Shown one piece after another: positions 7,309 through 48,800 of a stretch of 64,000 nt of DNA. Within the stretch, counting starts at the first letter, position 1; each line of letters begins with the position of its first letter. A program made the position numbers and the translations under genes. Source of the stretch: an uncultured Clostridia bacterium. GTDB taxonomy: Bacteria > Bacillota > Clostridia > Christensenellales > UBA1750. Location of the stretch: the NCBI GenBank assembly GCA_947625765.1, contig CANQPP010000003.1:1-64000 (forward strand), read 5' to 3'. The notes under the pieces were generated by a model, which saw only the letters and a program-made list of their open reading frames with translations, searched no databases and was not told the origin of the DNA.

Positions 7309-7470
7309 CCCGCGCCTTCCCCCTTTTTTGAAGTCTGATCGTCCGCCCCTAGTCTGCGCCGCCGCCCTTTCGCTTATGCTTCTGAAACATGGAAGCCCCA
7401 TTAAAAACCGCTTAAATAGCGCGGCCGATCGGCGGGCGATTAAATACAAGTAAAATCGTCGGAATTGTGG

Positions 7471-7499
7471 TTGACATCTCCCCCTTGCGGTGATACTCT
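7471..7499 (+). promoter_or_regulatory. Sigma-A type promoter of the Rrf2/isc operon
   Basis: TTGACA - 17 nt - TACTCT. Confidence 0.65.
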
Positions 7500-7513
7500 T
7501 AAGGCGTCATTTC

Positions 7514-43625: not shown

Positions 43626-43660
43626 TTAAAAATACGGGGAAAAGCCGCGCGTTTTCCTTT
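43626..43660 (-). terminator. Riboswitch expression-platform terminator
   Basis: Minus strand GGAAAACGCGCGGCTTTTCC CCG TATTTTT between aptamer and dapA. Confidence 0.6.
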
Positions 43661-43826
43661 CCAACAGCGCTCCGCCCGAAGGGACCTTCCGGGCGACAGT
43701 CGCACGGCCCTGTGCCGTGCGCCCAGGCGCGGGGCCTCTTAAGTTGCCCTTTTGAAGCGCCTTCGGCGGGCAGGCCCTTCTCCGTTTTTGTTTCGGATAC
43801 CGCGATGCCCGCGCCTCTGTCATAAG
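43661..43826 (-). ncRNA. Lysine riboswitch (L-box) aptamer upstream of dapA
   Basis: Minus strand: ACAGAGGCGCGGGCATC...GCCGAAGG...CCTGGGCGCACGGC..GCCGTGCGACTGTCGCCCGGAAGG..CCTTCGGGCGGAGCGCTGT; matches L-box landmarks (AGAGGUGCGG, GCCGAAG, CUGGG, CUGUC, GGAGUGCU). Confidence 0.85.
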
Positions 43827-43834
43827 GTACCTTG

Positions 43835-46245: not shown

Positions 46246-46325
46246 TTCTTTCGCGGCCTTGACGGAAGGCGCGCCGCCGTGCTATGCTTCCCTTTGCTAA
46301 ATATGGAAAAAAGGGGGGCTTTGCC

Positions 46326-46706
46326 ATGCCAGACCTGTGGCAGAGCGGCATAGAAGAAGAAAGCGAGTACGCCCGGCGCATCCGGGTGACCACCACGCCT
46401 GCGCTGGAGGGGTACCGCGTCACCGCGTACTTGGGCGTCGTCTCGGCGGAAACCGTCCTTGGGACCGGCTTTTTCAGCGAGCTTGCCAGCTGGATGGCCG
46501 ACCTGTTCGGCGCAGAGAGCCGCACGCTTGCCTGGAAGATCGACCAGGCCCGGGACTCGGCCCTCAGGAAGCTGCGCGCAAAGGCGCTGGACTTAGGCGC
46601 GGACGCCGTCATCGGCACCTCCTTCGCCTATTCCTCCAACTCCCGCAGCATGGTCAGCGTGATCGTCACCGGCACCGCCGTCAACGCCGCGCCCATCCCC
46701 CGCTGA
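46326..46706 (+). CDS. YbjQ/UPF0145-like putative heavy-metal-binding protein
   Basis: RVTTTPALEGYRVTAYLGVVSAETVLGTGF...ALRKLRAKALDLGADAVIGTSFAYS. Confidence 0.8.
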   Translation: MPDLWQSGIEEESEYARRIRVTTTPALEGYRVTAYLGVVSAETVLGTGFFSELASWMADLFGAESRTLAWKIDQARDSALRKLRAKALDLGADAVIGTSFAYSSNSRSMVSVIVTGTAVNAAPIPR

Positions 46707-46833
46707 CCCCCGCCCCACCTATCCTCCGGCCCCGGGCCTCGACCCCGGGGCCGTTCTCTATTTCTCTCCCCCCGCAACGCACTTTCCTGAAGGTCCCCCC
46801 CCGAGCGGCAACACTATGCGAGCCCTCCCGCAT

Positions 46834-48606
46834 CAACGCAGCGAGCAAGCGGGTAGGCGTTTGAAAAACGCCCCGCAAGCGAGCAGGATTCGCGACGAAC
46901 GCCCCACTTTCCCTCATATCCGCCTTTTCCCAAAAATACCAACCTTTTGACAAAATCCGACATAACACAACCACGTAGCGAGCGAGCTGGCGTTTGCAAA
47001 AACGCCCCGCAAGCGAGCGGGATATACCGCGTCGCCTCTCTTTCCCCTCCTGTTCGTTCCCATTCTCTCAAGAACCGCGCTAACATCATGCCAAACCCCC
47101 GAGCCAACGCAGCGAGTGAGCGGCTGGCGTTTGCAAAACGCCCCGCAAGCGAGTGGGATTCACAACAGCCGCTCCGTTTTTCCCCAAAAATGCCATATTT
47201 TCGACATATTCCGATATTGTGCAACCGCGTAGTGAGCTATTGGCGTGTTGAAACACGCCACAAGCGAACGGAACTTGCGCTGATCATTCCCCTTTTCCCT
47301 CCTGCCCCTTCCCGCCCCACAAAGAACCGCGCCGAACTTCTACCAAACCTCAACGCCAACGCAGCGAGCAAGCGGGTAGGCGTTTGAAAAACGCCCCGCA
47401 AGCGAGCGGGATTCATGGCTAACCTCCGCTTTCCCTCATATCCGACTTCCCCAAAAATGCCGAACTTTTGACAAAATCCGACATTGCGCAGTCACGTAGT
47501 GAGCGAGTGGTGCGTTTATAAACGCGCCACAAGCGAATGGGATTTACAGCGTCCCTTTTTTCTCCTACCCGTTCCCCTCCTCCCAAGAACCGCGCCAAGA
47601 CTCTACTCCCCCTCCTGCAACGCAGTGAGCAAGCGGGCAGGCGTTTTGAAAAAACGCCCCGCAAGCGAGCGGGATTTCAGATGAAAGCCCCCGTTTTCCC
47701 CATATCCGTCTTTTTCCAAAAACGCCGAGTTTTCGACATAATCCGATATTGCGCAACCGCGCAGTGAGCGAGTGGCGTGTTTCCAAACGCGCCACAAGTG
47801 AACGGGGCTTACGACGAATGCCTCGCTTTCCCTCATATCTGTCCTTCCCTAAAAACACCAATCTTTTGACAAAATCCGACATCGCGCAGCCGTGTAGTGA
47901 GCGGGTAGGCGTTTGAAAAACGCCCCGCAAGCGAGCGGGATTCACGACGCCCCCCACTTTCCCTCATATCCGTCTTTCCCCAAAAACACCGGCCTTTTGA
48001 CAAAATCCGACATTGCGCAGCCGCGTAGTGAGCGAGTGGCGCGTTTACAAACGCGCCACAAGCGAACGGAACTTACAGCGGCGCCTCTCTTTTTCTTCCT
48101 GCCTGTTCCCATTCTCCCACGAACTGCGCTGAGATCATGCCGAACCTCCGCACCAACGCAGCGAGCAAGCGGGCAGGCGTTTGAAAAACGCCCCGCAAGC
48201 GAGCGGGACTAGCAAAGGAGCCAAACAGGAGGAAAAGCCTCCGCTCATTTTTCAGCGGCAGCTCGTTTCCCCGACGACGAGAAGGGGGGATCGCCAAGGG
48301 GGGCGGCGCTCCGCCGCCCCCCTTGGCGGAGCCTCGGCGCAGCCGAGGAGTCTCCCGTACGGGGCACAAAGGCAAGCGAACCGCTCCCCCCGTCCGTGCA
48401 TCTCACGTCCCCCGTTTTCCGTCGTATCCCTTTTCCCGCGCCCGCAGGCGCGCGTCCCCGCCAAAAGTCGGAAAGCGCAGCGGAGGCGTCGTGAGCGCGC
48501 TTGCAAGCGAACAGCCGCAGCAAGCGGGACTTTTTGCGGAAGAGGAGTCGCGACTGAGTGAGCGAGAGGTGGCGTTTTTTTACAAAAAAACGCCGCCGCG
48601 AACGAT
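46834..48606. repeat. Array of about 13 related hairpins (two alternating stem types) with homologous spacers
   Basis: Type A core GCGGG-TA-GGCGTTTGAAAAACGCC-CCGCAAGCGAGCGGGATT; type B core GAGTGGCGCGTTTACAAACGCGCCACAAGCGAACGG; spacers share CCCTCATATCCG...TTTTGACAAAATCCGACATTGCGCA. Confidence 0.9.
48292..48348. repeat. Two back-to-back perfect palindromes
   Basis: CGCCAAGGGGGGCGGCG CTC CGCCGCCCCCCTTGGCG (17-bp arms), then CCTCGGC GCA GCCGAGG. Confidence 0.85.
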
Positions 48607-48627
48607 ACGTAGTCCGCGACGACGTGG

Positions 48628-48704
48628 TGGCGTGCCTTGAGGGATTCGAACCCCCGGCCTTTTGGTCCGTAGCCAAACGCTCTATCCAGCTGAGCTAAAG
48701 GCAC
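48628..48704 (-). tRNA. tRNA-Arg (anticodon ACG), CCA encoded
   Basis: Minus strand GTGCCTTTAGCTCAGCTGGATAGAGCGTTTGGCTACGGACCAAAAGGCCGGGGGTTCGAATCCCTCAAGGCACGCCA; acceptor GTGCCTT/AAGGCAC. Confidence 0.95.
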
Positions 48705-48800
48705 ATACCATCTGCGCTTGATTTTCAAGCGCAGAATCGATTATAACGCCGGGGGATAAAAATGTCAAGGGGTTTTATGGGTCTCAAACAAGATTCTTTT

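Follow-up and report, generated by a model that had tools for sequence, protein, structure and literature searches.

Tandem repeats behind a tRNA gene are known from rtT of E. coli tyrT, where they occupy a single locus, and the large structured RNAs GOLLD and ROOL, both in Rfam, often lie near tRNAs. The CGTC-tagged REPs are single hairpins of 20 to 40 bp with stems starting in AT and without a known transposase, reported from Proteobacteria, Chlorobi, Bacteroidetes, Spirochaetes and Thermotogae (Di Nocera et al. 2013, PMC3733652).

The locus described here lies in a window of 64,000 nucleotides (contig CANQPP010000003.1, positions 1 to 64,000) from an uncultured Clostridia bacterium of the order Christensenellales (GCA_947625765.1). 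Like rtT, it has tandem units behind a tRNA gene, but the element involved is dispersed, being found behind many tRNAs in many families. It is also large, structured and tRNA-adjacent like GOLLD and ROOL, but it matches no Rfam family and its pairing statistics favour DNA. We suggest, with a probability of roughly 60%, that the locus belongs to a family of small, non-autonomous, gene-less insertion elements at tRNA 3' ends, which would be selected as a folded DNA strand, and that this member was locally expanded. No description of such an element was found in the open-access literature.

The hairpin array

Eleven homologous imperfect palindromes of two types, A and B, follow each other from 46841 to 48204 with a spacing of about 132 bp (Table 1). 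On the + strand, the units have the form GYgaGCra-stem-aaGCgaRC. The original prediction had counted about 13 units; each of those positions does hold a hairpin, but only 11 are homologous units, the one at 48475 being the core hairpin and the one at 48553 the terminator hairpin of a tRNA-linked element. It had also placed the array against the tRNA-Arg gene, while the array proper stops about 420 bp away and it is the separate element that adjoins the tRNA. Other parts of the prediction held well: the spacers are homologous to each other, the compensatory stem changes are present and the two types alternate, with unit 2 (46978) as the sole exception. The stems had been described as too short, since the real ones are longer and contain conserved 2x2 internal loops. 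They are more stable than dinucleotide shuffles (z as low as -3.9). By TRF, the array has periods of 131 and 264 bp with 3.4 detectable copies, so that the repeat unit is an A-spacer1-B-spacer2 composite of about 264 bp. The non-Watson-Crick variants are G.T pairs (8 against 0), all on the + strand, which is opposite the tRNA.

As had been expected for a region with no credible protein, the ORFs of the array region have no Pfam match at E<0.1. Convergent predicted terminators enclose the array, one of a YbjQ-type gene (+) and the other at 48625-48590 (-). In a DNA similarity search of 60 relatives, the array had no match outside its own genome, and strict A/B units were found in that genome only.

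Two further features were observed in the window. A perfect 17-bp inverted repeat, CGCCAAGGGGGGCGGCG (GCCAAGG..CCTTGGC), lies between the array and the tRNA-linked element (48292 to 48328). With its conserved flanks (48250-48380), it has about 10 further sites in the same genome (contigs C2, C4, C7, C13, C39, C41, C68, C71 and C94), mostly away from the listed tRNAs, and is a separate genome-specific repeat family. A lysine riboswitch (43657-43827, - strand) is located upstream of a dapA-like gene.

Table 1. Positions of the array units and of the tRNA-linked element within the window.
Feature	Position	Strand	Method or evidence
Predicted terminator of YbjQ-type gene (46284-46706), far boundary of array	46727-46753	+	
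Array unit A1	46841-46884	+	
Array unit B1 (A-type stem in B position)	46978-47018	+	
Array unit A2	47112-47154	+	
Array unit B2 (GGCGTG/CACGCC)	47232-47269	+	
Array unit A3	47364-47407	+	
Array unit B3 (+ strand G.T pairs)	47499-47538	+	
Array unit A4 (T4/A4)	47625-47670	+	
Array unit B4 (+ strand G.T pairs)	47764-47803	+	
Array unit A5 (5' arm shortened)	47897-47936	+	
Array unit B5	48028-48067	+	
Array unit A6 (also occurs singly at other tRNA-linked copies in the same genome)	48161-48204	+	
Small GC hairpin 3' of core (GCGC-CTGCGG-GCGC type)	48434-48455	-	
Core hairpin of about 91 nt, long, with internal loops (model R1, 99.6 bits)	48456-48547	-	Covariation
First hairpin pair: intrinsic terminator (14 pairs, T run), then T7/A7 hairpin	48566-48625	-	Terminator scan, inverted repeat
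Junction: extra CCA, then CGTCG (conserved first bases of element)	48620-48627	-	
tRNA-Arg (anticodon ACG), anchor; CCA at 48628-48630	48628-48704	-	ARAGORN, Rfam RF00005

The tRNA-linked element and its core

The terminator of the first hairpin pair starts directly 3' of the CCA. This pair has homologues in other genomes, where small post-core hairpins with altered stems can also be recognized by eye. Related pieces are found on other contigs of the same genome, several of them terminating at tRNA genes, and these copies contain, from the tRNA outward, the terminator hairpin, the core, the small GC hairpin, a B hairpin, the GCCAAGG inverted repeat and an A hairpin. At the corresponding tRNA-Arg(ACG), the sister species has a plain terminator, and its genome has no match to R1, the covariance model of the approximately 91-nt core. 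Synteny beyond the tRNA is lost on the array side, and no true pair of empty and filled sites was seen within one species. Open frames running from the tRNA into the element (48252-48728, - strand, in the window) have similar ORFs at many loci, and are likely a source of spurious hypothetical proteins.

An alignment of 13 core sequences gives a long unbranched hairpin with internal loops and compensatory changes in 16 of 25 pairs. A larger alignment holds 58 sequences, nearly all picked by sequence pattern, and was built without reference to structure. In it, 95.6% of the cells pair and 19 of the 26 pairs have changed on both sides; none of 500 shuffles and no slid register come close. The outer stem was not part of the search pattern, and its 11 covarying pairs are therefore independent of the sequence selection. 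The shape of the core, a long hairpin, is kept far better than its letters. The covariation sought by the original prediction is present in this tRNA-linked core, and a search of Rfam 15 matched no family.

By eye, the A/B units and the core share 18 of the 19 bases flanking the apical stem (TTCGCTTG...CGCTCACxACG), for which reason we treat the units as derived from the core apex. When the copy behind a tRNA-Pro was used as a query, only its tRNA-proximal part was matched in other families of the order, so that the widespread entity is the element and the array would be its local elaboration.

Distribution and anchoring

The matches to the tRNA-Pro copy are located behind Ser, Met, Arg, Leu, Ala, Cys, Lys, Pro and Thr tRNAs, on the tRNA strand throughout. 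R1 matches were found in 30 of 248 genomes of Christensenellales and in 53 of 390 genomes of the class Clostridia. The conserved part of the locus, shared across the class, is thus the tRNA-proximal element, which the original prediction could not have seen. Carrier genomes have 1 to 12 copies. The spread is patchy over many families, most tRNAs and most genomes being without the element. A 25-base apical pattern recovered at least 116 stretches, nearly all from Clostridia MAGs and isolates, among them Christensenella sp. Marseille-P2438, Clostridium methylpentosum and Angelakisella massiliensis. With the same pattern, the element was found in none of 2.9 million viral contigs.

A same-strand tRNA lies within 600 nt upstream in 56 of 89 R1 hits, an opposite-strand one in none, and 7 hits are at a contig end; for hits obtained from the sequence pattern alone, the upstream same-strand tRNA is present in 42 of 85. 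Of the 84 close junctions between tRNA and element, 63 read exactly CCA-CGTCG and 13 more come within 3 nt, covering 25 anticodons. About 40% of the copies lack an intact tRNA in the nearest 500 nt, and some of these are behind tRNA 3' fragments or stop codons. Minimal copies measure about 195 bp and are gene-less.

The right ends, placed by eye in three lineages, also finish in CCA: ..AACACTCG(T/C)ACCA in one lineage, ..TTTGGTAGGTGTACCCA in Christensenella and ..CCCTGCCA in a further one. Copies can therefore abut, as CCA-CGTCG...CCA-CGTCG. Individual loci present different arrangements: tandem copies with a 195-bp period (L166), two copies behind a tRNA-Thr(CGT) (L127), a lone minimal copy between 25-bp repeats of the right end, followed by a terminator (L213), and a native tRNA-Leu terminator displaced to the far side of the element (L153). 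Many unrelated sites, a patchy distribution and tandem copies are traits of mobile elements, from which we infer that the family is mobile.

Some variants and neighbours of the element were also observed. In two genomes (G433 and G319, loci L274-L285), a variant with a lengthened apical stem, TTCGGGCCTAAAGCGGCCCTC, is present in high copy number; many of its copies have no tRNA within about 2 kb and carry mirror-image halves downstream. A nested insert, GTTACAG..GCGCGCTTCCCGCGCGTACCATG, splits the 5' arm of the core in several copies (L207 450-510, L231 2445-2510, L123, L194 and L212). The 3' ends of tRNAs also carry small elements of another kind (L153, in minus orientation at 7315-7510, L066, L059, L119 and L072), which start with an inverted T-arm-like GGGACTCGA, finish by repeating the tRNA 3' end and are sometimes nested with the CCA-CGTCG element.

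Strand of the folded form

RNA stems tolerate G.U but not A.C. In the sequence-selected core set, read on the tRNA strand, G.T occurs 13 times and A.C 35 times (p=0.002, indicative only, as the cells are mutually dependent), while the acceptor and T stems of the tRNAs at the same loci, used as a control, have 144 G.T against 11 A.C. When the model-found hits are added, the counts become equal (87 against 80); since this looser set is biased to G.U by the RNA model and holds misaligned rows, more weight is put on the sequence-selected one. Three core positions pair better on the tRNA strand (T.G at columns 46/53 and 38/61, G.T at 30/71). On the strand opposite the tRNA, the conserved 2x2 loop of the core reads GA/GA and the apical loop YTTR; on the tRNA strand, the 2x2 loop reads TC/TC. 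Ordinary pairs take the place of the 2x2 loop in some lineages (L064 and L289). Tandem sheared GA/GA pairs are a stable DNA motif. Considering the reversed G.T/A.C ratio and these two loops, the functional folded strand is likely the one opposite the tRNA, and no more than likely given the equality in the looser set. That the core does not seem to be an ordinary RNA of the tRNA strand is better supported than this assignment. Covariation alone is no proof of RNA, and a strand-resolved count of G.T against A.C, with tRNAs from the same genomes as calibration, can help in such cases.

A structured RNA, which the original prediction had named as a large ncRNA, would account for the very strong covariation of the core. 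It could be a 3' trailer cotranscribed with the tRNA, but the tRNA-strand counts are the reverse of those in the tRNA control and a terminator stands between the tRNA and the core. An antisense RNA would likewise yield G.T over A.C on the opposite strand; however, in copies of 195 bp the core is followed by only about 25 nt before the right end is reached, too little for an internal antisense promoter, and no promoter above chance was found in the window region. With the missing Rfam match and the convergent terminators around the array, we consider a structured RNA unlikely in either form. The other options of the prediction, a mobile hairpin element expanded in tandem and a single-stranded DNA hairpin or recombination site, fit the results.

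Origin of the element

We suggest that the element inserts precisely behind the CCA of a tRNA by means of an enzyme supplied in trans, which would read a folded DNA strand. The first hairpin would provide the tRNA with a terminator, so that the insertion should be harmless. The core would act as folded DNA, most likely in the strand opposite the tRNA. At the present locus, secondary copies of the apical hairpin, their loop replaced by long variable stems, may have been duplicated as A-B pairs of about 264 bp until 11 units were reached, the variation in the array again preserving the pairing on the strand opposite the tRNA. No recurring recombinase or other neighbour gene was found near the copies, the top clusters being translations of the element or tRNA read-through ORFs.

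An immobile module of transcription terminators or insulators, placed in series behind tRNA genes, would explain that most copies have a terminator as their first hairpin, that the window region contains 17 terminator-like sites against 4.2 expected and that some copies stand directly behind the stop codon of a protein gene. Terminators, on the other hand, require neither a conserved loop sequence nor a covarying 91-nt hairpin, and here the core sits past the first terminator. The copies flanked by duplicated tRNA-like ends, and the absence of the element from most tRNAs and genomes, also make such a module quite improbable.

Imperfect palindromes mobilised by a RAYT or another Y1 (HUH) transposase, as in REPs and REPINs, deserve attention due to REP-tag-like motifs: on the + strand, the array hairpins are immediately preceded by GYAG, and the element has CGTC both at its start and 5' of the core apex. 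IS200/IS605 elements insert 3' of a short fixed sequence, and the insertion behind CCA resembles this. However, a Y1 protein is missing from many carriers, among them some with 7 to 12 copies, the four Y1 matches in the genome studied look like ordinary IS200-type proteins, and the size and tRNA anchoring of the element are unlike those of REPs, so that we find this origin very unlikely. Decayed attachment sites of islands integrated by tyrosine integrases would share the tRNA 3' end as target and the tRNA 3'-like repeats flanking some copies, but they are just as improbable, since integrases need a longer shared core than the CCA common to junctions with 25 anticodons, no integrase gene recurs nearby, and the minimal copies of about 195 bp have no cargo genes and are complete, with a conserved folded core, rather than remnants.

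Returning to the mobile element, we tentatively raise the possibility, which we hold as less probable than family membership itself, that it represents a new minimal class: a gene-less cassette of about 195 bp, inserted precisely behind the universal CCA by a recombinase recognising folded single-stranded DNA and accumulating in tandem, whose recognition hairpin was amplified into an array at this locus. If so, an undescribed element family resides at the tRNA genes of Clostridia, which make up a large share of the gut flora of animals; it prefers the CCA end of almost any tRNA as its site and keeps its recognition structure as a DNA shape. Such a family would be a further candidate, beside integron attC sites and HUH elements, for recombination through a folded single strand, and its mobiliser becomes searchable.

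Comparison with known systems

By feature, the CGTC-tagged REPs are the nearest known system. Like them and the GTAG-tagged REPs, the element is palindromic, intergenic and located downstream of genes, and it shares the CGTC tag at one end, with CCA at the other. The match to a known REP family goes no further, since the element has a minimum of about 195 bp, several hairpins, stems starting in G, an anchor at the tRNA CCA and a host range in Clostridia. Unlike the GTAG REP/RAYT system, many carriers are without PF01797, which does not co-occur with the element (10 of 30 carriers against 81 of 218 non-carriers).

By way of working, the nearest system is the integron attC site, whose folded bottom strand is recombined by IntI, an analogy and not a membership. 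The element has no GTTRRRY/RYYYAAC at its CCA-CGTCG junction and no gene cassettes, and the integron integrase (TIGR02249) is above the cut-off in none of the 248 genomes of the order. The resemblance lies in the shape kept over sequence and in short tandem units. Selection for folding of one strand may be shared as well, the G.T/A.C counts favouring the strand opposite the tRNA in the sequence-selected set and in the array, and being balanced in the looser set.
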